From positions 86,852,451 through 86,916,450 of the forward strand of contig NC_082595.1 in assembly GCF_030936135.1 (NCBI RefSeq): 64,000 nt of DNA, written 5' to 3'. Source of the DNA: Gavia stellata. Its lineage: Eukaryota; Chordata; Aves; Gaviiformes; Gaviidae. Under the pieces are notes generated by a model. It was not told where the DNA came from, ran no database searches, and saw only the letters and a program-made list of their open reading frames with translations. Shown here piece by piece: positions 1 through 47,500 of this stretch (position 1 is its first letter; every line of letters starts with the position of its first letter). The translations under genes were made by a program, and so were the position numbers.

Positions 1-10690
<10,690 letters not shown>

Positions 10691-13600: not shown

Positions 13601-14230
13601 CGTGCTGTCGCAGTGTGCAATACAGATACGGAAAAGATGTAGGTCTTTATTATACTGAAATCTGGACAAGCAGCATATCTGAGAATTTATCATACATAAG
13701 CTACTACTCTGTGTTTTAATATTTAGCAGCATCTTTATGCAAAATGTTTTTAGAATTCCACTGTTTACATTTTCTCAGGCTTATGCATAACATGTAATAA
13801 TGACTGTTGGAAATAAAGGAGCCTGACAGTGGACTCATTCACCTCTGTAATCCAGATTTTCTTAAAAGTATTGTGTAAGTGCCATGATGTTAGCAAACAA
13901 AACCCTCAAGCCAGAAAACCCACTTCCATGGTATTTCTGTATCTAATAAGGCTGTTGATATGAGTAGGATGTTCTGTAATTTGGGGAGGAAAACATATAT
14001 TGAAAGAACACTTTTGAACTTACATGGAAGGAGAAGGTGGAATTGTCAGAGTGAATAAAGAAATAAGGGTTCTTCTTTATTCAGTGTTTCTGTTCAAAAA
14101 CGTTACAAATGTTTGTTTCATTCCTTCTGTGTCAAGTCTCCTGCCCAGAATAAAGTTACTCTTGAAGAAATACTGGCTGACTAGAGTCTTGATCTTTTAT
14201 TCAGTTTTTAATAAAAGCACTTTAGTTTGG
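10691..14230 (+). other. CILK1: CILK1 3'UTR (probable extent)
   Basis: AT-rich, with no coding exon that I recognise. Poly(A) signals AATAAA occur at 12752, 13812, 14053, about 14148 and 14210. The last is followed by a GT-rich stretch (TTTGGTGTGCATTTG), which makes it the best candidate for the distal end, giving a 3'UTR near 3.5 kb. Earlier sites may also be used. Two open frames of 115-145 codons here (12339-12776, 14024-14371) show no family resemblance and are taken as chance. Confidence 0.45.
14210..14215 (+). terminator. Candidate distal poly(A) signal of CILK1
   Basis: AATAAA with a strongly GT-rich region 15-45 bases downstream. Which of the five AATAAA sites is used cannot be decided from sequence alone. 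Confidence 0.4.
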
Positions 14231-14497
14231 TGTGCATTTGTTTGTTTAGTTGTGGCATTTTTTTTTAAAATAAGGCTTACATTTGGTGCCTTCTCAGAGG
14301 GCTACTGCCTTCTGGCAGCTGTGCTCTTTCTGCAGGTTCATTGGCCACGTGATTTGAGTCTAAGCATGTAATTTCTGCAATATATGGTGAGCTTTGTGTA
14401 AAGCTAATAGCTTAGTCCTTGGATGTCAACTCCTCTGAAACTAACTGCAGCACTGAATTAAAACAGAAGATGCATAATACCTTGGAAGAAAGACAGG

Positions 14498-14558
14498 CAC
14501 TTGGACTAGGTGATCATTGTAGCTCCCTTCCAAGTGAAATGTTCTGTTCTATTCTATA
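14498..14558 (+). mobile_element. CR1 LINE 3' tip
   Basis: About 60 bp: CACTTGGACTAGGTGATC, then the CTCCCTTCCAA segment and a TTCTGTTCTATTCTAT tail. It matches the tail type seen at 63.9 kb. Confidence 0.8.
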
Positions 14559-14962
14559 ATTGTTCTCAGTGTCTTGTGTTGCCTCTCCTCAGCCTTCTCC
14601 TGCTGCTTTCAAGGCAGTAGAAGCTGAAGACATGATAACTTACAAACCCAGCCCTTTTGCTAACTGTTCAAATGGGCTTAAAATGAATTGTACAAGTGAT
14701 GAACTAGGTAAAAAAATACATCTTCAAGTACAAAGATGCTAGATTGTAATTGGTGTGTGTGTAAGGTGAGGAGCTCAAGGATTTGTAGGTGTCTGGGGGA
14801 TGGAAGTGGGAGAAGTTGTAAACAGAGCACAGCCTGCAGGGGTGGAAATAAAGTAATTGGAATTCCCCATGCAGCCTCCCCAATGCAGTGTGAATGGGGA
14901 ATGTGCAAGAGGGAGTTTCTGAGGTGGTTCGAATAAGGCTGCCTTGGCGGGTTTGGCAGCAC
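14559..14962. other. Spacer between CR1 tip and the 7SK 3' end
   Basis: No recognised feature. Short overlapping open frames on both strands look random. Confidence 0.6.
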
Positions 14963-14966
14963 AAAA
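14963..14966 (-). terminator. RN7SK: Pol III terminator of 7SK
   Basis: A run of four T on the minus strand just after GGCAGTCTGCCATTG. The human end is recalled as CTTTCTTTT, so the bases before the run differ here. Confidence 0.8.
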
Positions 14967-15291
14967 CAATGGCAGACTGCCCCATGCAGTGCCTCACTTG
15001 GATGTGTCTGCAGTCTTGGAAGCTTGACTACCCTACGTTCTCCTACAAATGGACCTTGAGCTTGTTTGGAGGTTCTAGCAGGGGAGCGCAGCTACCGTAT
15101 ACCCTTGACCGATGAACGGTACGCCTCTATCGGGGAAGGTCGTCCTCTTCGACCGAGCGCGCAGCTTCGGGAGGGACGCACATGGAGCGGTGAGGGAGGA
15201 AGGGGACACCCGCCTAGCCAGCCAGATCAGCCGAATCAACCCTGGCGATCAATGGGGTGACAGATGTCGCAGCCAGATCGCCCTCACATCC
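14963..15291 (-). ncRNA. RN7SK: 7SK small nuclear RNA (RN7SK), full length
   Basis: Read on the minus strand from 15291, it begins GGATGTGAGGGCGATCTGG, the 5' end of vertebrate 7SK, and stays collinear with the remembered human RNA for about 329 nt (human 331-332). The three GATC motifs fall at RNA positions 13-16 (15276-15279), 42-45 (15247-15250) and 64-67 (15225-15228), the human register. The first two belong to the HEXIM-binding 5' hairpin. The 3' hairpin (GGCAGTCTGCC) and a terminal U-run are present. 7SK holds P-TEFb inactive in the nucleus with HEXIM1/2, and is stabilised by LARP7 and capped by MEPCE (established knowledge). Intact promoter elements upstream argue for the functional locus, not one of the promoterless retrocopies common in mammals. 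Open reading frames overlapping this interval are spurious. Confidence 0.97.
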
Positions 15292-15315
15292 GAAATACAG
15301 TGCCGCCCGCAGTGG

Positions 15316-15322
15316 TATATAA
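15316..15322 (-). promoter_or_regulatory. RN7SK: TATA box of the 7SK type-3 Pol III promoter
   Basis: TTATATA on the minus strand, 25-31 bases upstream of the 7SK start at 15291. This is the spacing expected for a gene-external Pol III promoter. Confidence 0.9.
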
Positions 15323-15337
15323 CGGTCAAAATACCCA

Positions 15338-15357
15338 ATCCGCTCTATGTTACGGCG
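15338..15357 (-). promoter_or_regulatory. RN7SK: Proximal sequence element (PSE) of 7SK
   Basis: The minus-strand block CGCCGTAACATAGAGCGGAT lies 47-66 bases upstream of the start, the SNAPc-binding position. The CCGTAAC core resembles vertebrate PSEs. The exact limits are inferred. Confidence 0.7.
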
Positions 15358-15473
15358 ACGCCGCCGAGGCCGAAAATTCAGCGACAGGTACCGCAGAATC
15401 ACCTCTCTGTAGCGAAAAAACCGCTTCAAGCTAAAACAGTTCGAAAGCTTTACCGTTTTTTCCTTAAGTTTTC

Positions 15474-15491
15474 CTCCCAGAAGCCTTTGCG
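15474..15491 (+). promoter_or_regulatory. SPH/ZNF143 (Staf) site, likely 7SK distal element
   Basis: CTCCCAGAAGCCTTTGCG fits 16 of 18 positions of the Staf/ZNF143 consensus (YWCCCRNMATSCMYYRCR). It lies 183-200 bases upstream of the 7SK start, where distal sequence elements sit. An octamer-like AAATATGCAG follows but matches poorly. The site could also serve the divergent CpG-island promoter. Confidence 0.7.
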
Positions 15492-15727
15492 AAATATGCA
15501 GAGTAGCGGCTTCCTATTGGCGGTTGTCCCCCTTGTGACTGCCTCCTAGCGCTGAGGCTGAGGGCGGGGTAGGTGGGTGGGTGCGCTGGCCTCCGGCTCG
15601 GCTCGGCTCGGCTCGGCTCGGCTCGGCTCGGCTCGGCTCGCTGCTTTCCTCACGGGGTGTCAGCCAGCTGCGGGCGGGTGGCGCCCCGCGGCGGGAAGCA
15701 CTGCTGCCTCGCTGGTTAAAAGCCGTG
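15480..15727 (+). promoter_or_regulatory. CpG-island promoter, probably GSTA first exon
   Basis: GC- and CpG-rich, unlike the AT-rich surroundings. It has an inverted CCAAT (ATTGG at 15516-15520), a GC box (GGGCGGGG at 15562-15569) and nine GGCTC repeats, then CGGGCGGG-type sequence. It lies head-to-head with 7SK and 2.6 kb upstream of the first GSTA coding exon. A possible exon-1 donor is GTACGT at 15727, followed by a T-rich stretch. The transcription start and exon limits are inferred from context and could be wrong. Confidence 0.6.
15595..15639. repeat. GGCTC pentanucleotide repeat, nine copies
   Basis: Perfect 5-bp units in the CpG island. The length is likely to vary between individuals. 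Confidence 0.95.
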
Positions 15728-18291
15728 TACGTTCACTTGTTTTTATTATTTTTTTGTTAATTCTTAGTGTGACTAATGTGGGCTTCTGTGATTTCTCTTT
15801 TCCCATCACCACCCTGCTGTCCTCTGGCTCGCTTGGCTCTTGTATGGGGGGCGGTGGGGGCTGTGCTGGGTTCAGGTTGGCATTCGGGTGTCTGATCGGG
15901 AGGTAGCCCCCCTGGTCCCGGGCTGCTCGCCCTGGACTTAACCAGTGCTCCCATAAGAAGCGCGTACTCGAGCGTTTCTCATCTCTTATGTCAGAGCTTG
16001 TTCTGTTCTGCTCTCTGCCTCCAAGCCCTCCCCTCACCGCCAGCTATCAGCATGACGGCTCCCCATTTAATAACGTGAACCACTCTTCATCTCGTGTCTC
16101 CTTGGCACGAATGGAAGGGGTTGGAGTTGATGGCCTGGGAGGCTACTACCTGTCATACACTGAGCAGGGGGCTTTCCCCCCAGGTTGGTGTTAGATGACG
16201 CAGGGTAGAGAAGAGCGGCCGCTGTTGGGCTGAGGGCTGCTGGATGCGAGCAGTGACAACCGGGGCCTGGAGCCTTGGGTGTGCAGGACGTGCCAGGCGC
16301 AGCTGGCCTCCCGGCCCTCTTCACCAGTGTGCTCCTGGTCTGCGTGGCTAGCATGGGAGCCATGACTTCTTGCACGGATACTTATGTTCCCTCTTTCCCC
16401 CTGTTAGCCCAGGCGGCCTTCATACACCACAACAAGGGAGTAAATTCAGAGCCTTTTTTCCCAAAGTCCCTTTTGCTGCCAAGATACCAGGCTGAGGGGA
16501 ATGGCCAGCAATCTACCTGCGATTGCGGCTCCTGGCTGCAAATTGCCATTTTCCCTCCTTTACTTCTGGTGAGAAGAGCGGGGAAGGGAGAGGCTCTTTG
16601 CCCATCCCCAGGACACTCCCTTTCCATCAGACTTCAGTTCACAAGTTGGACTTCCTCTTCCAATACTGCGTGGCAGGCTCAGTCTTAGGAACCAGAATGC
16701 TACAGCTTGCTTCAAAGCTTGCTGATCCCCTTGTATTTACGAGACAAGCATTCACCATGTCTTTACCTTCCGTTTGCCTTTGCTGCATTGATGTGAGCTT
16801 GGCAACAGTGACTTGCTTGTCTCCTGTGACATGTCAGTTGGACTGCTAGGAGCATGTCTTAGGAAGGTGCACTGAAGAAAAGTGACTCTTCTGTTTCTGT
16901 TTTAAACGTCGAATTAAAAATCACCTTTGGCTTTTTTTTCCTTCTGTGAAATTAGCTGCATTACAAGAAACTCCTGTTTCATTCTGTTCTTTCACGTAGT
17001 TCACACTGATACTTTTCTTTTAGTCTTTTTTTCTGTTTCTCATGCCCTGTTATATTTATTAGCAGTACAGATACTCAGTAATGTTTGAGTTCCCAGTGAC
17101 TTAACTAAGAAGAAATGGAGGCCCCAAAGCAGCCGTGAAGGGCCGAATAGCCTGGCTCATTTGAATTCCCGTGGTCAGATGCAGTCTCATATTTTGTGTT
17201 CTGTTTTCATGCCTGTTGGCTAACAAGCGGATTGCTTGCCTTGTGTGCGCTCAAGGCCTTTCAAAGGTCGCTTTTTCCCTCTGCTTATGAAGGAATGCTT
17301 GCAGCATTGGGAACTGGAGGTTATTGTTTGCATGCCAACAGCCTCTTTTCCAGAATTACTTGAACTGTGGATTGGAGTGACAAGAAATCTCCCTACAGAG
17401 AGAAAACAGCTCTCAGTTGCAGCAACGAGTTGATATTACCGAGTTCTGCATACAAAATGCCAGTATGATGAAATTTGATGCTCACTTGGCTTATGGCTCT
17501 GCAGTGGAATCCAATTCCTGCTGAGACCAAAACACTAGTCTATTCAAAAAATAACAAGTAATAGCCTCATTTATGAAGCCATTCAAGAACTAAAATGCTG
17601 CTTGTAAAGCATGGCGTATTTGATCAACTGAAAAGTCTATAAAGTTTTGCTTAGCAACAGGTTTGTTAATGAAAAGAAGTGCGACCAGTAGAAGGCTAAG
17701 TAATGCAACAGTCTGAATCTTTGTATTTTAATCTGGATTATTACGGAAGAAACTGGTCATTCTTTTGAAGTTTCTACTGATTCTGGATCACCACAGCTAG
17801 AAAGAAAAGTGGGAGGCTTTGAAAATACGTTCCCATACTTCACCTAAGTATGCGTTGAATTAAAGTTTAGATACTTTTGGCATTCTTTGATATAAGGGCT
17901 GCCAGATTTGAAAAACCTGTCTACTGCCTCTTCTCCCCTTTGATCGAAACTTGGCTTTCAGGGGTGATTGAGTAACTGTAGTGCTAAAATTTACATTTTG
18001 TAAAAGTTTTAAGGATTTCCTTAGTGGTGACTTTATTTTTTTTTTCTGTTATCTCCTACTTAGCAACTTGATGCTTACTTTTCCTGAATTTCAGGGGAAT
18101 AAAAAGACTATTAAATACTCTGACTTGAATGTGCAGCAGTAAAACCAAATCAGGTTTTAGACTGAAATTTACTGAAATGTTTTGCCAAAAATTAACTTAA
18201 ATTTTTGTCATGTGAGTGACCTGTGAACCATTATTCCAGCTGCCATCAGTTTTTTGTATCATGATTAACTTATCTTTTGTAACTATTTTAG
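15728..18291 (+). other. Probable first intron of the GSTA3-like gene
   Basis: GC-richer to about 16.9 kb, then AT-rich. Several open frames of 65-137 codons on both strands (for example 16275-16688) show no recognisable domain. I see no repeat. It ends at TATTTTAG before 18292. Confidence 0.5.
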
Positions 18292-21200
18292 GTAGTTTGA
18301 AGTCATGGCTGGAAACCCGAAACTTTACTACTTTGATGGAAGAGGCAAGATGGAGTCAATTCGCTGGCTGTTAGCTGCAGCTGGGGTCGAGGTTTGTTCT
18401 AGTGTTTTTGACTTTAAGCTGCACATTCGTAAGCTTGTCTTTGAGGCAGATCACAGGTTATTAACCAAAAAAGAAAAGGCATCCCAAGACGCAATAGTAA
18501 ATGAGTGTTGGCTATTCAGTATAATTAAACACCCTTACTTTAGGTACACAAAAGTATGGCTTCAAGTTACATGTCTTCTAAGCATTGACACTGTAAACCA
18601 GTTTCTTGCTTAATGCAAGAATGTGTAATGCTTAATTAAGCATTTGATTACTGAGCCAGAGCTGTTGAGCTGAATAATAGATGTGTTCCTGGCATAACAA
18701 GTATTATCTGTGCCAAGTAAAACAGCAACGAATTTGCTTTCTCTAGTCTTTCTGTTTTCAGTTGGCTGCTCACACACAGATTTTTATTTTATTTTTCACT
18801 CCACTGGCTGCATCCTCCACAATAAGTTATAGTACAAAATATATTTTGTCCTACTTGCAACATTTAGATGAGGCTTAACAGGGTGAAGTGAGCAAATTGA
18901 CTTACATGTGTAGGGAAATTAGAAATCTCAGAGCAGGAAGAAAAATATTTGGGTAAACCAGAGATGTAAGACACCACTTAAAAATAATTTTTTTTGATGG
19001 GATGTAATTTACTTATTCATTTGCTATCTATCTTGGTGATAAACTGATAATTCAGGACTAGTAGTTGCTCTGAGTGTCCTCTTACATAGTAGGCTGTTAC
19101 ACTTCATACAGTTACCCCTGTACTGAGACAAGGAACCTGAGTTTTTCAAAAAGACTACCAGCCTTTATTTGAAGGCCTTACAGAAGACACAACTGGTTGC
19201 TTCCCTGCATCGCTTGTTCCTATGTTTTAATTCCCTCTCTCTTTTCTTTTTTTTCTTTTTTTTTAAATTAAAAAAATGCCTGTTGACAAGTACCAATTAT
19301 TTTTTCCTTGAGATATTCTTTTCCCAGCTTTTCATCAGCAGAAGCTTGTGTTCTGAATTTTAGACTCTGTGATCACACTTACTATGGTTGAACATTGGCA
19401 CAGTATTAGTATGCCTAATCTTCTCGGCTTTCCCTAGCATAGCAAGTCTTAATTATTAACATAAGTTGCACAGATATTCTGAGAGAGGTCAACTGAGGAA
19501 GGATCCTTGGGAGTCCATAGCTAGGCACCTAGGGATTGGTAAGCTCAATCATTTTCTAGTCTCCATGGTCTACATTGATTATAGACCATGTATGGCATAG
19601 GCAAACATGTACATGCAGACATCTAACTTCGGTGTCTTAATCTTGAACTGAATTCCTCCATAAGTAGCACTGATTGGATCAGCCATTCTCAACTATATTG
19701 AATATAACTACAACATTCTGATCACAGGCAATTCTGTATCTTTTTGCTTCTCATCTAGTGAATAATTCTTCTTTAGGTGTCCTAAACATGCTTCTGTACT
19801 AAACTTCCTGCTGGGCATAATACTTTTACATTATTTTGTAAAAGCTTTGGTTTAATTTTCTAAGAATTTGTTCCTGTCTACCTCCCAAATCAAAATATCC
19901 CACAGCAGAGCTTTTTTTCCACATACCAGAAAGCATTTTAAGGACAGCCTAGTCTGTATTGTTGACCGTCTCACATTAAATTGCCTGTTCAATACCAAAT
20001 AAACCATCGTCACTCCAGTTCTTATTGCCCATTTTTCTGCTAGGTTGGCTTTAGCAGCATTGGTCAAATATGATGGTCCAAGAGGTTTTGCCAGTGCTTC
20101 TGGCCTTGGTATTTTCTCCCTTAGAGCCATATCTGGAATGGAAGGAACCATGATATATATTCTCTTCCTTTTATGATGCTTAAAAACTTTATCTGTTTTA
20201 GAAATGTGAAAAGATACTAATTTCTTCTTCTTCCTCATTCTCTTTTGTCAGTTTGAAGAAGAGTTTTTGGAAACCCGAGAGCAGTATGAGAAGCTCCTGC
20301 AAGGTGAGTCCATGTGAAACCTCAAGAAAAGTGTGAGCAGACTTTACTTAGTCTCAGAGAAGACGTGTGAAGAGAAGACTTTGAAGACTGTGTGGGGCTT
20401 TCATCCCACACAGCAGAGAGGGGAGTAAAACTGAGAGCTGTGAACAGCTGCAGAGACTGATTTCCAACCAACCCCACCCCCCCACCCCCCCCCACCCCGC
20501 CCCCATATGTGGACAGATGCAATTGAAAATTGAATGTCTTTCCAACCTGGAGCGTTTCCCAGGCCTCTGGGTTGTTTTGTTCTCCGTTTGTCTACGTGTC
20601 TCACCTGGTCCCACAAACTTACCCTGGGCATCAGTAACTTACCAAAACTTGTCCTAAAACTTCATTGAATGTCCTGATTTAGCTTAAGATACTGGTTGTA
20701 AGGGAGCAATTTGGGAATCTGACGTTTGCTTCAACTGTGTTTTAAATAATGGAACAGAATTTTAAAAATATATTTAGAATTAGACACTTTTTACTCAGCT
20801 GATATGTTTAGTGTGATTGTCTCCACTGTATTTCAGTTTCAGCATAAAAGCTGCTGTACACAGTCCTCACTGCAACTTCAGTGAAATTTTTTTAAAGCAA
20901 GGGTGTTAATCCACAATAATTGTGTTCTGCAGTTTAATTTGTCTGCACCACTGTAATTTATTGTTTGCATGGAAGAACTCCAGTTTAACATAATGACTGC
21001 CTACAGCAAGCTCACCATAAAAGTAATGATCTTCTGAAGATCCAGTAGAATAATGTGTGGCTTTCCCTTAGGTGGATCCCTGCTATTTCAGCAAGTGCCC
21101 ATGGTGGAGATTGATGGGATGAAGATGGTGCAGACCAGAGCCATCCTCAGCTACATAGCAGCAAAGTACAATCTCTATGGGAAGGACCTGAAGGAGAGAG

Positions 21201-24200
21201 CCCTGTACTGTAATAGTACTACTCTTCGTAAATTTATTATAGTAGCTTAGATACATCTAGAATTAATTGCATACTTGCATACCCAGAGAATCACCTGTGT
21301 TCCTCAGCAACACACAACTTGCAGCGAGCCTGAGAGGCCACAGCTAGATGCAGGCCAACTGATTTGTTCCAATTCGATTATTTCTACATAAAAATATTTG
21401 AAGCAGGGGTTTATTGTGCATTAGTAAAAGATTAATACTTGACACAGGTATTCAAGAGGTGACTGGCATGTTAATGTTGATCTACTTTTGTAAACAGAAA
21501 ACTTTTTGGAAAGCAATTGTTAGTTTTTAACTTTTGGCTGCAAAGTAAGATCTGTCATTCATGTTATCTGTGATTGCATGATGTTCCACAGCATTGTAAA
21601 AAGTGCATGGTTTAGGTCTTTGGGAGTTGGGGCAAGAACAGCTAAAAGCTGTTGAAAAGCTTCCGCTGTCACGTGAAATTAAATCCAGGTCTTGATGTTG
21701 TGTCTGTGTGAAGGGAAAAAAAAGTGATTGGGCTATCTCAATATGTATCCTTTAAATGTCCATTTCCTGTTGTTTTTCAAAAGAAGGAAAGCTAAAGATC
21801 AACTAGTAAAGCATCTAACTTTGATAGAGACTTTACAATAAACTGTCCTTAAACGGTGCAAATGGTTGGAAGAATTGGCTGGTTCAGGGAAGTAACAAAA
21901 AGAATGAATATTCAGATAGGAGCCTCAGTCATAGCTTATCAGCTTCTTTGTGTTGTTAATAAGCCGTCATTTCTTGTAGTTTGCATTCCTTGCATACCTC
22001 TTCCTTCAAACAGAATTCTCTTCCATGGAGTTTTAGATTTAGCCTGGAGCCTATTCCTGCTGTCTTACCAGCAAATATAAATAAGTATATTTGTTGATTT
22101 GTTCTTGGGCAGGGGGAAGGGAGCATCAGTGTTTTGAGGAAGGCGTGCTGTGATTAGCTCTAGGTTTAAGTACTTTGGATAGCTGGTCTTGTACAGTGTG
22201 GAAGTGCAGTTTTGGAAGACCAGGTGGATGCAGGCCAGAAGCTGGCATACATTAAGGCTTGTAGGAATATCTGATAGCACCTTATTGCACATAACATGTT
22301 TAATCCTTACAGAGGCTTTTTCGAGAAGCTGTTGCCTGACAACAAAAACTGCAATTAGTCTTATTACACAGCAGGAATTCAAATCTGTTACAACATAGGA
22401 TAGTTAGAAGACTTTGTTAGACTATTTTACCAGATATTTTATTCATATTCATGAGGACTTAATGTAAATTTGAGTCTTGTCTACAGTACAAAACATGCTG
22501 TCAGAGCTCTGGAAAATGGATAAAAGAACTGCTGTACTAATAATTTAGCTAGATGTGGAACCTGATAGACTTCAGGTTTCCAGCCCCATTACTAATCTAT
22601 TTGGCACCACTTGGACATTGGATGAAACCCTGAAGGTGGGATACATCCAGGTGACTAAGCCAGTTGGGGATGAATCTTCTCGTGGTACTGTGTGTTTCTT
22701 TGGTGATGCTGAAATGATCTGTAACACCAAAGTTAAACTTTTGTAACCTCTGTACAATCCTGTTTAATCCTGCACAATGAGGCAAGTGAAGTGCCAACAA
22801 CACTACAAATATGAGTGAGACTCAGACTGTGACATATTTTTTTTTTTAACTGCGAAAATAATTTTCATGAGGGGGGTGGGAAATTAAACTTTTACTATCA
22901 CAACACAAATCTAAGAAAACTCTGCTTTATGAAGGTGCCTTCTTATTTAAGGTTTTTGTTTGCTTTGGTTTTAAGGATTGATATGTATGTTGGAGGAACT
23001 GATGACCTTATGGGCTTCATTTTGATGTTCCCGTTCTTATCAGCTGAAGATAAAGAGAAACAACGTGCTGTTATAGTTCAAAAGGCGACAAGCAGGTATT
23101 TCCCAGCATATGAAAAGGTATGTAGGAGGATCATTTCCTTCCATTGTTCTGGAAGGATAACAATGGGAACACTGAGTATTTTACCGAAAGCAGAAGAAAC
23201 AGAAAGGTGTCAGCGCAGTACTTTAAACCAGGACATCATACTGTCTCCAGGCTGGAGAGATGAGAGGGAGGTCAGAGCAGTACGAAACAAGTTGGGGTGG
23301 GTTAAATGCAGAAATTCCTAAGTGAGATTTCATGGTCTGAGCAGCATCAACATTCAGACTGAAGGGTCCAACTATCTGGCAGAAATAGCTGCTTTTCTGT
23401 TTTAAAGACTAAAGGGAAGACAATTTCCCACTTAAATACTATCATCTCTCCTATAGATGGCTGCCAGAGTTTATTCTGCCTTAGATTCCACTTGTTGTGT
23501 CCTAGCCCCAGTGCTTTAGGTTGATCACCTCTCTTTTACATTCTCTATTTTCCCATTGAAGCTGTAACTACATACAGAAAAAATCAAGATTTATTAGGCT
23601 GGAAAGGAGTGAATACCAAGGAGGTTTCTAACCCTGTAGTCCAGTACGTGGCATTACCTATGGCTATAGGAAGGAAGGATGGCTAAGAGAAACCCTGGGA
23701 TTCTAGATTGCCGCTGTAAGGACTGCTCATAGATATCCTGTAAAATGATCAGTGGCTGCAGGCACTGGGCCCACATCCCCCACACTAGTAGTATCCCTAG
23801 TTGCATGGGAGAGAAAGGTGAAAAGAAGAGGAGGCAGTAAGTATTGTCAAAGAAGGTGTGCCTGTGTGTTTTGAAAATATCAACCCCAGCTGGCTATCCA
23901 CATCTTAAGGTTTTCACTTACGACACTTCTAGGTTTTGAAAGACCATGGGCAGGACTTTCTTGTTGGCAACAATTTTAGCTGGGCAGATGTTCATCTTCT
24001 TGAAGCCATTTTAATGGTAGAAGAGAAGAAGTCGGACGTGCTCTCAGGCTTTCCTCAGTTACAGGTACCTTACAGTAACAATACACTCATATGGCTGGAA
24101 AGGTGATAAATGATATTTCAAAGTCTGTTGTGTGTAGATAATTCTACAAAACAAGAGCATTTGTCCCTCCTCTTTCACTGTAGTCTCGCTCTTCTTGCTT

Positions 24201-25404
24201 TAGGAAGAACCTCATAATATGTTTCATCCAGAGAATCTATTATTTTCTGGAGTAATCCCTGTATAGATCTGAAGAAATCCACCCTCCCTTTTTTTTTTTT
24301 CCCCCTCCCCTCACCAATTCTGTGATATCTTTAAGCAGAAGATATTTTCTGTATCACTAGAAGTGATTTGAGTAAAGTACACATCCGAAACCACAGATAA
24401 CTGTTTCCACTTCATCCCATATCAATACAAGACAGAGGGCTGTTTTATTACTGTTTAAAATATCTAGGTTGGGGTGAGGAGGAGTAAAATTCATCCATGG
24501 TTAAACTATTTCTTCTCTTGCCTCCACATACAACTTGTTAAAGGATGTTACACAAGTCAGTAAAATTGTTTTTTCTTGTGTTACTTTCTGTTTTTTGAAT
24601 GCCATGTACTTACTATTTACCTTTTAGGCATTTAAAGCAAGGATAAGCAGCATCCCCACAATCAAGAAATTTCTAGAGCCAGGAAGCCAGAGGAAACCTG
24701 TTCCTGATGATAAATACGTGGAGACTGTGAGGAGAGTTCTCCGCATGTATTATGACATAAAAGCGAATTAGTGTGCCTGGCTAAAACAACAGCTGTGCTT
24801 GGTTTAAGAGAACTGTCAGATTGTATGTGTACAATTATACTGCAGAGAGAGGTAAAGGGGTGTTCAAAAGGAGTTTCAATGGGCAGTATCTCATGTTCTC
24901 CCATATAAAATACAGTAGGCAGGTATCTTTTATAACACTTTACTACTAGCCTATTTTTTTCCTTCGTTCTTCGTGATATTTTTCTGGTAATTTTAAGCAA
25001 GTGAAATGGCAGCAAGCATGCTGTCTTCCTGGAGACTTTTTGGAAGAGTGAAAAGGAAAGAAATGTGAACTGCTGACTGACAGCTTCAGCATGTTCTGCT
25101 ACTTCTAAGGATTTTCTTCCGAGATCCAGGTTGGATTTTTGTATGATGATTGCTTCCAGTTCAGGCCTTTATTGTTTTTAATATCACTGTAGGCAAATGA
25201 AATAAGTGTTTTTTAAAGAAAATAGGAGGGAGGTGTTTCTCTTGCCACTTCTGTTGGACATCGGTGACTTGTCTGAAATACCAGCATTGTGCCTTTATAA
25301 CTAAGCTGCACCTTTATTACTGAATTAGGAAACAAATCAATTGCCAAATGGCATTTTTGTGTAACTAACTGCTCTATCTAGAGGATCTGTTCTAATCAAA
25401 TAAA
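18292..25404 (+). CDS. GSTA3: Alpha-class glutathione S-transferase, GSTA3-like, complete
   Basis: A cytosolic enzyme joining glutathione to electrophiles. Coding joins are 18305-18391, 20252-20303, 21072-21204, 22976-23117, 23933-24064 and 24628-24771. They sum to 690 bp, 229 residues, all in phase, with no stop. Residues visible: catalytic Tyr9 (in LYYFDGRG), glutathione-site Q54-V55 and Q67-T68 (in MVQTRAIL), Tyr212, and the alpha C-terminal helix ([12 protein letters not shown]). The usual Arg15 is Lys. By memory it is closest to chicken GSTA3 (CL3), also 229 aa with Lys15. The ATG follows a short 5'UTR in exon 2. Probable promoter: the CpG island near 15.6 kb. The ortholog name is inferred. 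The alpha-class assignment is certain. Confidence 0.93.
18305..18391 (+). CDS. GSTA3: GSTA3-like coding exon 2 (start codon)
   Basis: 87 bp, 29 codons, starting [15 protein letters not shown] and ending AAAGVE. Exon begins at 18292 with 13 bases of 5'UTR. The donor is GTTTGT, as in the copy at 61.9 kb (GTTTGC). Confidence 0.95.
18392..20251 (+). other. GSTA3-like intron
   Basis: AT-rich with poly-T and poly-A runs near 18991 and 19245. No element recognised. Confidence 0.7.
20252..20303 (+). CDS. GSTA3: GSTA3-like coding exon 3
   Basis: 52 bp: [17 protein letters not shown] plus one base. The 52-bp size and phase are fixed in the family. Donor GTGAGT. Confidence 0.95.
20465..20505 (-). repeat. 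C-rich tract, possible G-quadruplex on minus strand
   Basis: Consecutive C runs of 4-9 separated by single A or G bases. The complement carries at least five G runs of four or more. Confidence 0.8.
20506..21071 (+). other. GSTA3-like intron, remainder
   Basis: No recognisable feature. Ends in CTTTCCCTTAG. Confidence 0.7.
21072..21204 (+). CDS. GSTA3: GSTA3-like coding exon 4 (glutathione site)
   Basis: 133 bp encoding [20 protein letters not shown], then [19 protein letters not shown]. It must end two bases into the Leu codon, at the unusual donor GTACTG, to give ALIDMY with exon 5. The first codon is Gly (GGT), where the 48.9-kb copy has Asp. Confidence 0.92.
21205..22975 (+). other. GSTA3-like intron
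   Basis: Holds a 63-codon sense frame at 22555-22746 that I cannot identify. Otherwise nothing recognisable. Confidence 0.6.
22976..23117 (+). CDS. GSTA3: GSTA3-like coding exon 5
   Basis: 142 bp encoding [25 protein letters not shown] and [11 protein letters not shown]. The [10 protein letters not shown] block marks the GSTA3-like type. Donor GTATGT. Confidence 0.95.
23118..23932 (+). other. GSTA3-like intron
   Basis: Nothing recognised. Confidence 0.7.
23933..24064 (+). CDS. GSTA3: GSTA3-like coding exon 6
   Basis: 132 bp, 44 codons: [20 protein letters not shown], then [15 protein letters not shown] and GFPQLQ. Includes the helix-6 N-capping/hydrophobic staple region (SWADVHLLE) typical of GSTs. 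Donor GTACCT. Confidence 0.95.
24065..24627 (+). other. GSTA3-like intron
   Basis: A pyrimidine tract near 24290-24315. No other recognisable feature. Confidence 0.7.
24628..24771 (+). CDS. GSTA3: GSTA3-like terminal coding exon 7
   Basis: 144 bp: [20 protein letters not shown], then [26 protein letters not shown] and TAG at 24769-24771. Confidence 0.95.
   Translation, partial: AFKARISSIPTIKKFLEPGSQRKPVPDDKYVETVRRVLRMYYDIKAN
25399..25404 (+). terminator. GSTA3: Poly(A) signal of the GSTA3-like gene
   Basis: AATAAA about 630 bases after the stop, followed by a GT-rich stretch (CATGTTGTCATCTTGTGTC). The 3'UTR is 24772 to about 25420. Confidence 0.8.
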
Positions 25405-26395: not shown

Positions 26396-27609
26396 TGTGG
26401 AATAATTGCTGGAGGTAATTTAGGAATTAAATTTATATTAAAGGTACAGCATTGAAGAAATCTTCAGGGTGGAGTGTGGCGAATATGCGAGGAATCCATC
26501 CCACAGAAGTTCCCTAGGCAACCTTAGATGTTGGCAACACCAGGGGAGCTTGGCGTGCTGACTCTAAGAGAAACTACACAGAGGGTGGAGCGGAGTGAAG
26601 ACACCGCAGCCAGGCTCTGTGATAAGACGGGATCTGGAAGGTACTATGGAACTGACAAGCTGCATATTTACCACCCTAAGCCAACAGTCTGTCATTTTAT
26701 GACAAAATACTATCCTTTGGGTGAACTTTGCTCATTATAATCTCATTATAATACCAGAAAACACATCTCCATCCCAAAGCTACCCACCTCCAAGGTGCGA
26801 CCACCCCTCACTGAGCTTGCGCTCTGAATTTTTCTTAGTCTATACCTTTAAAAGAGAACGAGAAACTTTTACACCAATTACAATAGAGGTATGTATGACT
26901 AGAGTCACTCAAGCTCCACCTGTAAGGACAAATAATATAAAATGGCTTAAGAGAGGAGGGATGCCAGGGAAGATACCATCGCAGACCACCTTTGATACCT
27001 GGGATCAGTCGACGGGCTGAGCCTCTCTTCCCCTCCACAGGGACGCCTTTGGGTAAGATTCGAACACTTGGTTATACCGAGTGCTTCCCCGTGAAACTTA
27101 GAAATCTCTATAGAGTTGCTTTATAACTTAACGCGTTTGTAGCCAGGCTATATTACTCACATTCTTGGTATTTGCACATGCTTTGCAAGCAGTAATTTTA
27201 TCACCGGCAATCCAAAAGAACTTGTGTATCTGTTGCTTCAATAAACTGCACTATTCACTAATCTAGCCGTGAGAGTTCTCATTGAACGCCACCAAATCCC
27301 TTAAGTGTGGCCGTGCTAGTTCATGGAACGCGACTAGACTGAAAGTGTGCAGTGTTATGAGTGTATCCGTAATCGTGAGAGTTCAATACATTGAATGCGA
27401 CCGGACTTGTAACATCCTGATGGTGTTACGAGTGTATCCGTAATTGTGAGAGTTCAATACATTGAACGTGACCGGACTTGTAACACAGAAAAATTGGGCA
27501 TCACTCAGAATCTAAGCCTAGCCGCCCCCAGCCCCTCTGATATCTGAGGACAAGCTGGAACGCAAGGGGGTTCATTTTCTGCCAAATTGCCTTGCCCTTT
27601 AACGTGACA
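26396..27609 (+). mobile_element. Solo LTR (1,214 bp) inside CR1
   Basis: Begins TGTGGAATAA and ends AACGTGACA, flanked on both sides by the 6-bp duplication GGTCTG (26390-26395 and 27610-27615). A TATA box (TATAAAAT, 26936-26943) and AATAAA (27239-27244) place U3, R and U5 on the plus strand. There is no internal retroviral sequence, so this is a solo LTR left by LTR-LTR recombination. A 6-bp duplication is typical of alpha/betaretrovirus-like elements. The family is not identified. Confidence 0.9.
27352..27487 (+). repeat. 71-bp tandem repeat in the LTR
   Basis: Unit 27352-27422 is followed by 27423-27487. They share GAGTGTATCCGTAAT, GTGAGAGTTCAATACATTGA and GACCGGACTTGTAACA. Weaker related units (GAGAGTTCTCATTGAACGC, GCTAGTTCATGGAACGCGAC) precede them from about 27267. 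Confidence 0.88.
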
Positions 27610-28431
27610 GGTCTGCAGAGGGATCTGGACAGGCTGGATCGATGGGCCCAGGCCAACTGTATGAGGTTCAACAAGGCCAAGTGCCGGGTCCTGCACTTGG
27701 GTCACAACAACCCCAGACAACGCTACAGGCTTGGGGACGAGTGGCTGGAAAGCTGCCCCGCAGAAAAGGACCTGGGGGTGTTGATTGACAGCCGGCTGAA
27801 GATGAGCCAGCAGTGTGCCCAGGTGGCCAAGAAGGCCAAGATCATCCTGGCCTGTGTCAGAAATAGTGTGGCCAGCAGGAGTAGGGAAGTGATCGTGTCC
27901 CTGTACTCGGCTCTGGTGAGGCCGCACCTCGAATCCTGTGTTCAGTTTTGGGCCCCTCACTACAAGAAGGACATTGAGGTGCTGGAGCGTGTCCAGAGAA
28001 GGGCGACGAAGCTGGTGAGGGGTCTGGAGCACAAGTCTTATGAGGAGCGGCTGAGGGAACTGGGATTGTTTAGCCTGGAGCAGAGGAGGCTGAGGGGAGA
28101 CCTTATTGCTCCCTACAAGTACCTGAAAGGGGGTTGCAGAGAGGTGGGTGTTGGTCTCTTCTCCCAAGTGACTAGTGATAGGACAAGAGGAAACGTCCTC
28201 AAGTTGTGCCAGGGGAGGTTTAGATTGGATATTAGGAAAAACTTCTTCACTGAAAGGGTTGTCAGGCATTGGAACAGGCTGCCCAGGGAGGTGGTTGAGT
28301 CACCATCCCTGGAGGTATTTGTGTAGATGAGGCGCTTAGGGACATGGTTTAGTGGTGGACTTAGCAGGGTTAGCTTAGTGGTTGGACTCGATGATCTTAA
28401 AGGTCTTTCCCAACCTAAATGATTCTATGAA

Positions 28432-31948: not shown

Positions 31949-32036
31949 ACTAGTAGGCATGTCTCTCAGCTCCATTTCAACAATGCAAGAGCTGTGGGCA
32001 TTGAATTAGACTGACGTTACTTGTTTCTGTCCCCAG

Positions 32037-32165
32037 ATGGAGCACTGCTCTTTCAGCAAGTGCCCATGGTGGGACTGGTGGGATGAAGATGGTGCAGCCC
32101 AGAGCCGTCCTCAGCCATACAGCCCGAAAAGTACCTCTATGGGAAGGACCTGAAGGACAGAGCCT
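32037..32165 (+). pseudogene. GSTA pseudogene exon 4
   Basis: Preceded by TGTCCCCAG. It keeps CTTTCAGCAAGTGCCCATGG and GGGATGAAGATGGTGCAG but has a 1-bp loss between them and more indels near AGCCATACAGCC. Confidence 0.9.
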
Positions 32166-34509
32166 GGTACAATAACTGTAAGTGTCTAAGCACTAGATAC
32201 CCACTTTTGAACTATGACTACTTCTGTAGTTAATGGAAAGAAATAAATATCACCAGACGGCATGGTTAACCTCTTAGCATATGACTGCAAGCATGTCTGC
32301 AAGCCACCTAGGAGTGCAGGGCAGAAATCAGGCATACATATACACACATCTCCAGCAGCCCCTTCCAGGCTTTGGCGTGTAAAACTTTCTTTATTGATGT
32401 CTGTCGGAATTTCCCCTGCTGCAGCCTGTGCCCATCGCCTCTCCTCCTTTCTCTGTGCTCCTCTGAGGAGAGTCTGGTCCTGGCCTCTCTGTAACTACAC
32501 ATTAGGTAGGTGAAGGCAGCAATTAGATCATCGGCACTTTGCTATTTAACATTTTTATCAAGGGGTAAAAGAAAAATTAGCACAGTTCATGGAAGATAAA
32601 AAAGAAAGTGACAATATGGAGGAAAGGTGAGATTCAGTGATCTGGATCAGTATGCACACTGGGAATGAATAAACAAGATGCATTTAGTGTAGCTAAATTC
32701 AGTTTACCTAAATTCCCACTGATGTGGGAAGCAGGAACTCAGAGGAGGAGCTAAAGGACATGGTGGATAATCAGCCATATACCAGTTCCCACTGTGGCAC
32801 CGGCATCCAAAAAAGCTAATGTGACCTTGGTGTATAGTGGAAATTTTCAAGTAGCGTGGTTGTATAACTCCATGTCCAACTCTGACAGTGACCCATGAAG
32901 TATCTAGCTATAGGCATCACTTCCTAATCATAATCAGAACTGGGGACAATTTTCTGGTTATGCTGCAGGTTACAATTCGTTTATGTTGCTTGCCCTACAA
33001 CTACTACTTTCCATTTCAGACCAATTTGTACACTGCAGCAGAACCATTTAATCTCACACCTGGAAACGTCATCCAAGAGAAGATGGAATGGAAATGTTAT
33101 CCTTTCTGGCCAGAGAAAAAGAGCTTTACCTCATTCTTCAGCCTTAAGTGCCAGAGCTTAGCACATATGACCCCAGCTGTGCCAGCCTACTCAGATACAC
33201 ATTAGTTCAAGCATAGATCATCCCTCCACTCGCTTTGTCAAGGAAGTAACTACCTTATTTAACTCTTGCTATTATTCAGCAGGCAGTTTCGCTGTAGGAG
33301 AACTTTACTCAAGGGGTGATCTGGGAGAGAACTGTTTGTTCTGGATTCCTTTGAAAACCTGCTTTGAACAATTATTTCTGAGAAAGTTCCTCTAAGAAGG
33401 GGTTGCATGGAGACAGCTTTGAAATGAACGGCGTAACTCTTATGCTTTGCGGAGAATCTCATTGTTTAAGTTCTTGCAAGCAAAGTATGCCCACACAACA
33501 AAACAAAAGCGTAACAGGGGTGTGTGTGTCTTAACCTTAACTAAAGAAGCACACTGTTTATTTGTCTAGTGCCATGGTACTTTCTTGCTAATAGTAACTG
33601 GTGCTAATATGAACCGGTGCATGGTTGAGGCTGGAGAACGTACATGTCCAGGACCCAGGGGTCATTTTTAGCCTTCAAAAGCGACAGAGTAAGACTTCAC
33701 TAGTTGGATAGTGTTCTGGTCCTCCTTGAAGCACGAGGGATATCTCTCCAAGCCAGACTACTGAAGACAAGTGTATAAGTTTGGGCCCCAAAGATTGATC
33801 TGTCTTTTCTGCTCGTTCCTATGTAGAAGACTAGGAGTCTCCACATTCAGCAGTGAAACATAGTCCCATCAACACTTTTCTAACATGAGTGTATTTACTG
33901 TATTTTACTTATTACAACTTCATTACCTTGTACATAAAGACCGTACACAGTTTCAGTGTGGTTCTCAAGCACACCAAAGCCTTCTTTCAATATTCCTGCT
34001 ATGGCAAGGGCAGTTCAGTTCTATGTATACATATATTCAATTTAACCTCCCACTGCGCAGGCTGATTAAAAGAGTATGTGTAAGTGAGATGTTACCTTTG
34101 TGAAGTGAGCACTGAGGTCCATAGCACTGCTACCTAGCTGGGCGAGATGAGCCCCATTCCTATTCCATGATCAAACTTGCATTGAAAATCTGTCCTTGAG
34201 AACAAGGGAACAAAAGCAAGTGGAAGTTCGTGTCTGATCAAGTGCACATATGACTAACTACCTATCTTGTCCCCCTTTTAATATATCTTATACCATACCT
34301 ACAGTTTCTCTCTTCTGATAATTTTTTATTTGTAGTTTTTATGGAAATGTAGCAACTGTTGTACAAGTGCAATTTATAAAACTGTCTAGGGATGCAGAAG
34401 TAAACCTGAAATGTAGGTTTAGGTGATTAGTATCTCCATCAACTCTATACTGGAGCAAAACTGAGAAGAGTAATTAGTTTTTTAATTCCTGTAAACCCTT
34501 TTCCGCTTG
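32166..34509. other. Pseudogene intron region
   Basis: Expected place of exon 5, for which I see no relic. No repeat recognised. Confidence 0.55.
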
Positions 34510-34611
34510 AATCAAACTAGCTACAATTTTCAAGTCCAACAACTGATTGAAGCTATTTTGATGGTAGAAGAGAAAGTGCCCTCCATTCTCTCTGAGGTTC
34601 CCTTTCTGCAG
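34510..34611 (+). pseudogene. GSTA pseudogene exon 6
   Basis: The 3' 85 bases align well and end TTTCTGCAG before GTGATT. The 5' third of the normal 132-bp exon is not recognisable. Confidence 0.85.
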
Positions 34612-35351
34612 GTGATTAAATCAAATAGTAATACAGCCATATTTATTCGAAGTTTTGAGGAAAACAAGTTAAAATGCTTGGCAGTTTCTTGCACTCTTGC
34701 AGAATGCAGAAGTAATCAAGTGAGGATCACGAAATACAACCAACAAAGTAAAATATAAAGAATAGAACATGAAAAAGCAGAGCTGAGAAATGCATGTGAG
34801 AAGTGAATTACAGTCCAATTTGTTTAAAAACTTATAAGATAAATTGTATTTTATGCATGTGGTCCCAGTAAGAGAGCTGGAGAAGGCCTGTCATCTCCCC
34901 TATCTTATAACAAAATTGGAATAAGATACTTAATGAAATTAAAAGCAGCAAAATACAAGCAATGAAAGGCAAAACTTTCACACTAAGACTGTGGAAATCA
35001 TTGTTACAGGGTGTCATTGAGGCCAGGAATTTAAAAGGATTAAAATGATATCAAGGGTATAATAATTAATGCTGTGAAATCTTGAAAGATATTGAACTTT
35101 CAGGGGCTAAGCATCTGTCTAATGCTGAAGGATTAAATTGTGAAAGGCAGATTATCCCAGTACTGATCATTGCATAATTTTATATCTTGCCTTGTACCAT
35201 CTGATTTGCACCTACTTTTCTCTGAGGTTGTACCATCTGCTCCTAAGAAACTGTCTCCTCCCTCATCATCAGTCCTGAGCCACCATCCAATGAAGCTGAT
35301 TTCACAGGTTTGTGTTGGCTTGTCATTAGAACTTTTCCCATCCCTATTCTT
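34612..35351. other. Pseudogene intron, left of CR1
   Basis: Nothing recognised. Confidence 0.6.
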
Positions 35352-36260
35352 AGAATCACAGAATCACAGAATCACTAAGGTTGGAAAAGACCTGTAAGAT
35401 CATCAAGTCCAACCATTAAAAAAAAAACAAAAAACCCCCACACACAAAAAACCCAAAAACAAACAAAAAAAACCCCCACCCACAAACCACAAAATACACC
35501 ACAACCCACACCAAAACAACCCACCCAACACCACACAGCACCATGCCCATCAAGCTACATCCCACAATGCCACATCCACACGCTCCTTGAATACCTCCAG
35601 GGAGGGTGACTCTACCACCTCCCTGGCAGCCTATTCCAATGTTTCACTACTCTCTCAGTAAAGAACTTTTTCCTAATATCCAGTCTGAACCTCCCCTGGC
35701 GCAACTTGAGGCCATTTCCTCTAGTCCTGTCACTAGTCACTTGGGAGAAGAGACCAGCACCCACCTCACTACAAACTCCTTTCAGGTAGTTGTAGAGAGC
35801 GATAAGGTCTCCCCTCAGCCTCCTCTTCTCCAGGCTAAACAACCCCAGCTCCCTCAGCCGCTCCTCATAAGACTTGTGTTCCAGACCCCTCACCAGCTTC
35901 GTCGCCCTTCTCTGGACACGCTCCAGCACCTCAATGTCCTTCTTGTAGTGAGGACCCCAAAACTGAAGACAGGATTCGAGGTGTGGCCTCACCAGCGCCG
36001 AGTACAGGGGCACGATCCCCTCCCTACTCCTGCTGACCACACTATTTCTGATACAAGCCAGGATGCCGTTGGCCTTCTTGGCCACCTGGGCACACTGCTG
36101 GCTCATCTTCAGCCGGCTGTCAATCAACACCCCCAGGTCCTTTTCTGCGGGGCAGCTTTCCAGCCACTCGTCCCCAAGCCTGTAGCGTTGCCTGGGGTTG
36201 TTGTGACCCAAGTGCAGGACCCGGCACTTGGCCTTATTGAACCTCATACAATTGGCCTCA
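35352..36260 (-). mobile_element. CR1 LINE 3' portion, antisense
   Basis: On the minus strand it encodes [20 protein letters not shown] through [10 protein letters not shown] and [17 protein letters not shown] to [14 protein letters not shown], with one open frame. It then ends in the CR1 tail (plus-strand AGAATCACAGAATCACAGAA). It is the same subfamily as the 27.6-kb copy by protein similarity. It lies 23 bases before pseudogene exon 7. A 120-bp A/C-only stretch (35418-35537) replaces the normal sequence near its tail. Confidence 0.94.
35418..35537. repeat. A/C-only tract inside CR1 tail
   Basis: Only A and C on the plus strand (G and T on the minus), apart from one T at 35495. It appears to be an expansion of the GGTGTTGGGTTGATGGTTGG part of CR1. 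Confidence 0.85.
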
Positions 36261-36283
36261 AGTTGCATTGTTTTCAGTTTTAG

Positions 36284-36372
36284 GCTTTTAAAGCAAGAGT
36301 AAGCAACATCATTGCCACAAATAAGAAGTTCCTCCAGCCTGGCAACCAATGAAAGCCACCACCAGATGAAGA
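36284..36372 (+). pseudogene. GSTA pseudogene exon 7
   Basis: Starts after TTTTAG with AFKARVSN and keeps KKFLQPG, then TGA in place of Arg, and PPPDE. Confidence 0.9.
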
Positions 36373-40859: not shown

Positions 40860-42640
40860 TTGCTGAATATTATTAAGGCCAAAGGTAGTGCATGCAAGAC
40901 GTGGTTACTTATTTGGTTGCAGCATAAATTTCTGGTGTGAACAAATTCTTCAGCAGTGTCTGGGCTAGTGCACCAGTCCCAAAATGCCCTGGATGGTGAT
41001 GCATTTTTGCTATGGGAATCAGGTATTGCTTAGGTAAAATAGGAAGATTTTCCACATCTGCTCTCCATATTCCTTGGGAGTCTTTGGTCACTTGTACCTT
41101 TTGCAAGAGTCAAATTCTTCAGCAGAACAGTCAAACATTATCTTTTCAAGAATGAGCAACACTAGGTAGAACCGTTGGACTGCTTGTAATCCCAGTGGTT
41201 CGTACGGCTGTTGTGCTGTGGCTTCAGTGGCATTATCTGTTAGACTATTTCTTATCTCTTCTTTTGTCCTTCTGCCAGTCTGGGCTGGCTGATGAATGAT
41301 AGCAAGTTTCTCTGGCTATTGTATAGCTTTTAACAGTTCAGTAATTTGCGGATTTGCGGAACATCTGATGTTTTAGTTCCAGTAGAAGTTATAAACCCAT
41401 GCAGCTTCCATAACTGCCCAGTAGCGTGGCATACTCCAAATGCATATTGAGAATCACCATATATATTTACAGTCTTCTCTTTGGCTGGCTGATAGACCTT
41501 TGTTAATGCAATTAATTTGGCTGTGTGTGCACTCAGCTTCAAACTGAGCGGTGAAGCCTCCACCTCTTCATTCACAGTATTTATTGAATAACCCATAACC
41601 TGGTTGCTGCTCAGATAATATGAGGACCCGCCAACAAACAGTTCCAGATTGGGATTTAGAAACGGCATATCTGTTAAATCTTCTTGAGCCTTTTTGGCTT
41701 TACTGGTGGTTACTACACAGTCGTGATGTGGAGCTCCTTCCCCAGGTGAAGGGAGTAGAGTAGCAGGGTTCAGCGTGTTAGTTACCATCCCAGAGGCTGT
41801 TCCTTGCCCTTCATGTATAAAAAAGGTAAATGGTTTACCGTAGTCTGGTGCAACTTGCTTCAAAAGCTTGAATGTCTTTACCTTGTCTGTTGTCCAGTGA
41901 ATGGGTTCTCCATCATCTTGAGCAATAATCTGTGTCAGTGGTTTTGCCATTTCCTCAAAAGGAGCTATGCAAGGGTGGCAGAATCCTACAGCTCCTAAAA
42001 AGACTTGCATTTGATTGTAGTGACTGGTCAGGGCAGATTTTGAACGGTTTTAATATGGCTTTCAGGTAAATGCTGCTCCTCTTGTTGGAGAATGTAACCC
42101 AGATATTCTACACTTCTCTTACAAAAATTGTGACTTATGTGGAGAGGTCCCATGGCCCTTTTCAGCTAAGGTAAACAGTAAGGAACGGGTGTCAGCTATA
42201 CAAGATTCCTTGGCTACTAAAAAATCATCAACATATTGTATCAAAAATGGTTCAATTTTCTTTAAACACAACATCCTGCAAATCTTTCACTAAAATTTCA
42301 GGAAAAATAGTGGAGGACTGAGTGAGGTCCTGAGGGACCCTTGTCTATGTTAGCTGTATCTTTCCCAAAATAAATGCAAAAAAGCATTGAGAGTCTGGAT
42401 GAAAAGGTATACTGATTTAAGGTAGAAAAAGTTGCCCCGTCTCCAGTAAGTTGAGGGTTGTATCTGCCCACCTTTAGGGAATCTCAAGTGTCAATAGACA
42501 CATAGGAATGGGCAACTAAACTGAGCCCTCAGGGCAAGACTCAGGTCCAAACCCAGGCACCAAAATGTAGCTGTCTTTATGTGAGCTACATGTGTCAGGT
42601 CCCTGTATAGTCAATGGAGATACATTCAGTGCATGTAAAG
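40860..42640 (-). mobile_element. Endogenous retrovirus pol remnant (gammaretrovirus-like)
   Basis: Minus strand, in order: degraded reverse transcriptase with a YVDD active-site motif (about 42225-42236), connection and RNase H (open frame 42010-41330), then the integrase zinc-binding part (HHPGHFGT, about 40990; open frame 41106-40909). The frame is interrupted between these pieces, and stops occur in the reverse-transcriptase part. In RNase H the usual Asp of the first catalytic motif is Gly and the usual Glu of the second is Lys, so the enzyme would be inactive. I see no LTRs, gag or env. This is an old dead copy. Confidence 0.88.
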
Positions 42641-44553: not shown

Positions 44554-47500
44554 GGATCCAGGAGCTCAGAAGCATGTCGGGGAAGCCCAGGCTTACCTAC
44601 TGTAATGGAAGGGGGCGAATGGAGCCCGTACGATGGCTGTTGGCTGCAGCCGGTGTGGAGGTTAGTTGACACTCAGTACGGTGTTCCAGACTGGTGTTTT
44701 CAACCGCCCTCAGAAAAGAACAATTTAACATGCACGTGCAGGATAAACGGCTGCAAGAGGGTGGCTAAATTCATTTGGCCAGTGGCACTGCATGTTTGTA
44801 ACTACCTTGTTTGGGGGTTGGTATTTGCGATGCAAACTCAGTGGACCTGGGAGTTTATTAGAGTTGGTATCAGTCCTGTAAAATAATTAATCATAATGGG
44901 TCAAAATGGGGATTTATTTAAAGGCCCTTAATCTGAGTTTTCCAGCTGTGCAAAAACACCTTAACTCAGTCTTATTTAGTTTGCAGTTACAATGTGTATA
45001 AACAAAAGAGTGTCGTTGACTTACATACCCTGGGGTGGGGTTAGAAATAGTTGATTTACCTTGTGCTTCCCTTGGCACTGGCTGCAAACCGTCTTCCTCC
45101 AGTAGATGTCTGTACACTCTTTTCTACCTGCACTTAGGTTATTTCCGAATCAGTGCCCTGAGGCAGAAGCTCCTCCCCAGCTCTGAGGATGGGTGGAGGA
45201 TCCTCAGGACATCTGCACCCAAACAGCTCAGCTGAAGATCCAGCCCATCATCTTTTGCTTGGTTCGGTTGTTCTGTTCATGGTTATGTACAGTCACTTAT
45301 GGAAGAAAAATGTTCAAATACAGCAATGTAACACTATCTTCTCTCCTTTTCCAGTTTGAAGAAATCTTTTTGGAAACAAGAGAGCAGTATGAAAAGTTAA
45401 TCAAAGGTAAGAATCCCAACGCCTGAGGCTTAGTCCCTCAAAATACTGCTCCAGTTGTGCTAAATTTGTGGTTTAAAATTAGTTTATTTAAACCAGTGCA
45501 AACTTCTAGGTGCACACCTAGAATACTGAAATGCTAGTTTTGAGTAACCTATTCTTTCCAGTGCCAAACAACTCCTATAAGCTAAAAGCCATAGCTTCTG
45601 TGGCTGTGTTCATTGTAGTACATTAAACAGGGGTAGCAAACTTTCCTATGTAACACAACTTAATTATCTATGCTGTCGAACTGTTAGCATGGTTCCTGGC
45701 ACATTTTTGGTCCAGGGCAAACAGCACTCCCCAAAGCAATTCCTAGGCAGCATTTGGGAGTTGTCCCAGGCCAAGGGCCATTTCTAAGATGTCATTTACA
45801 TGTGACCATCATGCTCTATAGGCAGAGAAAGATGAATAGGGTGAATGTGCTGAGCTGTTGCTGAGTTGACTAGTATAGATGTACCTGTGTGTTGGTTCGG
45901 AACTTCAGTCAGATAAGCCTCTAAATCAAAGGCTGGCATGGCACCAAAATCCCCAGGAAAGCCAGTTTTCCTTTGTGTTAGGCCCTGTGCAATCATACTA
46001 GTGACAGTCCTAAGCAGGATAAGCCTGAGCCATGAAGCTTCCCCCAGTTAGGCAGGGAGACCTGTGGGAAGTCTGACATGGTCAAAGCAGCAAACCACAA
46101 AGGCTTCATGTCAACCTTGGGAGTGAGGCCAGATCCCGAACACCAGTGCATACCCCCAGCCACTGCCCTTCATGTCTGGCCAGATGAAATCCAGCAGTGA
46201 GCCCCTCCGCAGCCACCCTGGAAGGAGAAGACCTTGCTGCTGGGGTGGGGAAGGAGTTGGGACTGTGAGGAGCACTACAGAGCTCCTGCCCGGCAGTTTA
46301 CCTGATGCCCAAGACATGTAAGAGAAACCTCACAGCAGGCTGAGCTTGCCAAGACATACTGGGAGACTTGGAAGAGGACTCGGCTGCATTCTGGCTGCTT
46401 GCTCAGAAAGGAAAAGCTGTGTTTAAAGAAATTCTGACAGGAAAACTAAAATTAACAAAAATTAAAAAGTGGTATCAAGAAGATCAGAATTAAATTTGCA
46501 GGTCCAGCTGGCTGGGAATCCGATGACATGGGAGGCCAGTGCAGGGTAAAGACACCAGTTACAGCTCTAAATATGATAACTCAGGTACTGAAAGCCCAAA
46601 TCTGAATTTGCTTCACAGGACTAATTAATCCAGACAGAGTGGTACAATTCTGGATACAGTGTCCAAGCTTATCCATATCCAGACAGAAGAATTAAATGGT
46701 GATGAAAAGAATAGGGAAGTTTTATAAAGAAGATCAAAGGCTTTTATGTATATATATTGAGCTTAAGAGGGTGAGAACACAAAGAAAAAGGTGGGGTTTA
46801 ATAAGATAGGTTGAAGAAAGACAAATTAGTCATCCTAATAAAGGGATCTCTAGAATGCTGCCAGTCATGCAGGGCAGGACTGAATACAAATAACCTCACA
46901 TTACCTCTCCCTCTAATTTTTTTCTCTCCCTACCAACATGCTTTTGCCGGGGTATCCTGTGTTTAGACACCACCACATCGTTAGAACAGTCCAGGTGTGA
47001 CTGTGGCCCATGCCAGCTGATGATCGGAGCAATGCCCCAGCAGTGTCCAGGATGAAGCCTGGGCCAGGGGCTGTTCCCAACAGGCAGCTTGCAGACAGAC
47101 AGCTGTTTTGGAGGCTGAGAGAGTTAAATAAAATTGGCCTGGCCAGATCTGTGCCCTTTAGCCTGAGAGACGACTAGCTTGGCTCAATCCGTGCAGCCAC
47201 AGGTTGCCCAAGTTGCTACTTGGATATCAACAAGCTCTGCTGGTCGGTGACAAACAGTAGGTCTAGATGATTGTTTTTTAATGTATGCTCCACAGACCAC
47301 TTTCTGACAGCACAATCCAATTTGCAAAGGGACTGGCAAACTGCTTTTAATCCTGCATATATATTCTATGCAGTGGCTATGTGAAGTGGTTCTCACTGCA
47401 AAGCGAGAAGCAGTACGCTACTGGTCATAAGAGGAAAATCCCTCTTTTCTGTAGATAAGAAACAAAGCTTGTATACAGTTCACTCACATTTGCTGCATCA

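Follow-up and report, generated by a model that had tools for sequence, protein, structure and literature searches.

Question raised by the locus

In animals, the small nuclear RNA 7SK acts as a restraint on transcription. A first-pass annotation of a 64 kb stretch of the Gavia stellata genome (64,000 nucleotides, hereafter the window), made by reading the letters alone, placed a full-length gene for this RNA on the minus strand at 14963-15291. We asked whether or not this locus is indeed a 7SK gene and, if so, whether it is likely to be the functional orthologue of the vertebrate gene or a dead copy of it.

Identity and extent of the 7SK RNA gene

Scanning the 64 kb window with cmscan against 4227 Rfam families gave a single match at the gathering level, that of RF00100 (7SK), which lies on the minus strand, from 15291 to 14964, and covers positions 1-331 of the 331 of the model. 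Its score of 375.1 bits (gathering score 35) bears out a full-length 7SK gene on this strand, and its E-value of 1.7e-106 excludes a chance match or a low-complexity artefact, a reading in favour of which we found no point and to which we assign a negligible probability. The check with the Rfam 7SK model proposed in the first-pass annotation thus returned a full-length, high-scoring match, and the structured non-coding RNA gene lies where the covariance model puts it. The same annotation described the locus as easy to miss when annotation is protein-oriented; a standard Rfam scan finds 7SK at once. With a permissive threshold (E of at most 1), cmscan returned two rows, 7SK and Vax2os1_2, the latter far below its gathering score at 15.6 bits. 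No second 7SK-like copy was found within the window, either by this permissive scan or by blastn, which gave matches of 11-20 bases with E-values of at least 2.5 and nothing longer.

We delimit the gene at 14963-15291 on the minus strand (Rfam match 14964-15291). The sequence TTTT at RNA positions 326-329 (14963-14966, minus strand) is the expected pol III terminator; the 391 bases examined from +1 onward contain no other run of at least four T. An RNA ending with the final T of this run would measure 329 nt, which fits these coordinates and agrees with the length first given. According to a review, human 7SK measures 331-334 nt (PMC10083321); the G. stellata copy is thus slightly shorter, with three deleted positions in the Rfam alignment.

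Conservation of sequence and pairing

In the printed cmscan alignment, which spans all 331 model positions, 309 are identical to the RF00100 consensus, 19 are substituted and three are deleted. Standard pairing is kept in 85 of the 87 consensus pairs of the printed Rfam alignment; among these 85, six differ from the consensus in one partner and one in both partners (305/319, G-C to A-U). The two broken pairs are 116/171, now U-U, and 301/325, now A-A. The latter belongs to the 3' terminal hairpin (SL4), which together with the U tail forms the expected LARP7 site at 14963-14999 on the minus strand (consensus 296-331 in the Rfam structure line). Besides this mismatch, SL4 carries the double change at 305/319 and a U to G substitution at consensus position 313.

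GATC motifs begin at RNA positions 13, 42 and 64, in the same register as in the Rfam consensus. The first-pass annotation had given these as exactly the human positions; the agreement established here is that between the window sequence and the Rfam consensus. GAUC1 (RNA 13-16) lies at 15276-15279, GAUC2 (RNA 42-45) at 15247-15250 and GAUC3 (RNA 64-67) at 15225-15228, all on the minus strand. Following the roles described in PMC10083321, the second and third would each form one half of the expected HEXIM site.

Plain minimum-energy folding of the RNA was no better than that of shuffled sequences (z 1.12, 86 of 100 shuffles being at least as stable). Folding of the single sequence being without support, the structural case for 7SK rests on the covariance model, and we did not count plain minimum-energy folding as evidence for it.

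Promoter elements

A TATA box, TTATATA, is found at -31 to -25 (15316-15322, minus strand), the position being identical to that published for the chicken 7SK gene (PMC2235858). This heptamer occurs nine times within the window, both strands included, so that its position and not the heptamer itself constitutes the evidence.

The published description of the chicken gene also reports a PSE at -67 to -46 and an OCT-1 element at -222 to -215, the latter being followed 4 bp further downstream by an SPH domain (PMC2235858). In G. stellata, an SPH/Staf (ZNF143)-type site is present in reverse orientation at -200 to -183 (15474-15491, minus strand). It agrees at 16 of 18 positions with the Staf consensus, which we took from PMC5006282; sequences with at least 16/18 agreement are found at three places in the whole window on both strands, the -200 site among them. 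The weak octamer-like sequence CTCTGCAT, which has two mismatches to ATTTGCAT, lies at -212 to -205 (15496-15503, minus strand), upstream of the SPH-type site, from which it is separated by exactly 4 bp. This spacing, the same as in chicken (PMC2235858), is the sole point in favour of CTCTGCAT as a putative octamer. The overlapping sequence CTGCATAT matches the reverse octamer equally well, and the position of the chicken octamer, -222 to -215, reads GAAGCCGC in G. stellata. By our own estimate, chance would yield roughly two sites with two mismatches in 300 bases, and the octamer is thus not above chance.

For the PSE, we used as queries a human U6 PSE and a short PSE-like pattern. The U6 PSE matches the sequence at -67 to -46 (15337-15358, minus strand) at 10 of 19 positions, a value tied with three other upstream places and lower than the best match elsewhere in the window (13/19). 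The short pattern has its best match, with four mismatches in 12, away from this position, and neither query rises above chance. The candidate PSE is therefore placed by position only, after the chicken gene (PMC2235858).

The start of the gene is CpG-rich, with observed/expected ratios of 1.04 (15001-15500) and 1.07 (15251-15750), versus 0.12, 0.05 and 0.08 in three overlapping stretches of 14001-15000, the last 38 bases of which belong to the 3' end of the gene. At 15594-15640, some 300 bp upstream of the start of 7SK, the pentamer CGGCT is repeated in 9.4 perfect copies. The promoter also contains a minus-strand tblastn match to GSTA4 at 15468-15412 (E 0.089), which we took as chance.

Gene neighbourhood

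Neighbouring genes were sought by tblastn with human protein queries (CILK1, GSTA4, FBXO9 and ELOVL5). Three matches to kinase-domain exons of CILK1 (ICK), with 89-100% identity to the human protein, lie on the plus strand at 514-2041, and an additional short CILK1 match lies at 4462-4491. On the other side, a GSTA-type gene is indicated on the plus strand at 18305-24744 by six exon-like matches to human GSTA4, one of them weak (E 0.036). Human FBXO9 and ELOVL5 gave no tblastn match in the window at E 1. The order is thus CILK1 exons (plus strand) on the 3' side, 7SK (minus strand), then GSTA-type genes (plus strand) on the 5' side. Homologues of GSTA3 and ICK (CILK1) are reported to flank 7SK on its 5' and 3' sides, respectively, in chicken and mammals (PMC2235858), and this common arrangement indicates that the G. 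stellata site is the orthologous one.

The GSTA-type genes stand in a row on the plus strand, at 18305-24744, 44574-52704 and 61894-62969; two have matches along the whole protein and the third is cut by the end of the window. Three incomplete GSTA-like matches found between the first and the second, at 31967-36370, probably represent a decayed copy; in-frame stops occur in two of them.

Functional gene or pseudogene

One could assume that the locus is a 7SK pseudogene, that is, a dead copy either retroposed here or decayed in place. Other 7SK-like sequences are known in birds: in chicken, matches on chromosomes 1, 2 and 4 are described as having no upstream TATA-like sequence (PMC2235858), and a survey based on Rfam counted 316 7SK loci in human, nine in chicken, three of these nine being confirmed by RNA-seq, and a median of 6.5 across 48 birds (PMC4378963). 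From such numbers, further copies or pseudogenes are to be expected elsewhere. The present locus, however, is syntenic with the 7SK gene of chicken and mammals (PMC2235858). In addition, it matches the model over its full length, its start is CpG-rich, and a correctly spaced TATA box and an SPH-type site lie upstream. A retroposed copy would not be expected to carry the upstream promoter along. We thus regard a pseudogene as very improbable.

Judging from its sequence, the locus is most likely, and in our opinion almost certainly, the G. stellata orthologue of vertebrate 7SK and a functional gene: the TATA box, the SPH-type site, the CpG-rich start, the terminator and the gene neighbourhood all fit. 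The points against this conclusion are the two broken pairs, the three deletions, the folding result, and a PSE and an octamer that do not exceed chance.

The closest known gene is that of chicken (chromosome 3, named as GenBank AJ890101 in PMC2235858). According to its published description, the two share the GSTA and ICK/CILK1 flanks, the TATA box at -31 to -25 and an SPH element 4 bp after the octamer or, in G. stellata, after the octamer-like sequence (PMC2235858). On the other hand, the octamer-like and SPH-type sites of G. stellata are closer to the start by about 10 bp, at -212 and -200 versus -222 and -210 in the description of the chicken gene (PMC2235858). One would wonder whether this shorter enhancer spacing, the shorter RNA and two of the SL4 differences noted above (U to G at consensus position 313, A-A at 301/325) could reflect a lineage-specific drift in the promoter or in LARP7 recognition of an otherwise normal 7SK gene; we consider this unlikely.

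Proposed function

As a functional orthologue, the gene would be transcribed by RNA polymerase III from an upstream type 3 promoter in which the distal octamer/SPH element, the PSE and the TATA box would all be used. Transcription would stop at the TTTT, and the product would measure about 329 nt. On the basis of homology with the system reviewed in PMC10083321, this RNA would be capped by MEPCE and held by LARP7 at the SL4 hairpin and the UUU end. In this RNP, HEXIM would bind at GAUC2-GAUC3, and P-TEFb would be sequestered and inhibited (PMC10083321).

The gene is an ordinary one, belonging to a known RNA family at a known locus, where the chicken gene has been on record since 2007 (PMC2235858). 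It is one further orthologue of this conserved transcription-elongation regulator and raises no new question.

Other features of the window

ARAGORN, used with its bacterial setting, found no tRNA in the window. A Pfam scan, which covered 10 of the 298 listed open frames, gave a match to PF00075 (RNase H, E 3.8e-07) in an open frame of 239 aa at 41330-42049 on the minus strand, probably a retroelement remnant. The tandem repeats of the window are unrelated to 7SK; they include a 71-bp unit repeated 1.9 times at 27352-27485. The sequence that follows this unit, at about 27600-28430, looks like a bird CR1 repeat; its CR1-type end, which points to an avian source, lies near 28380-28430.
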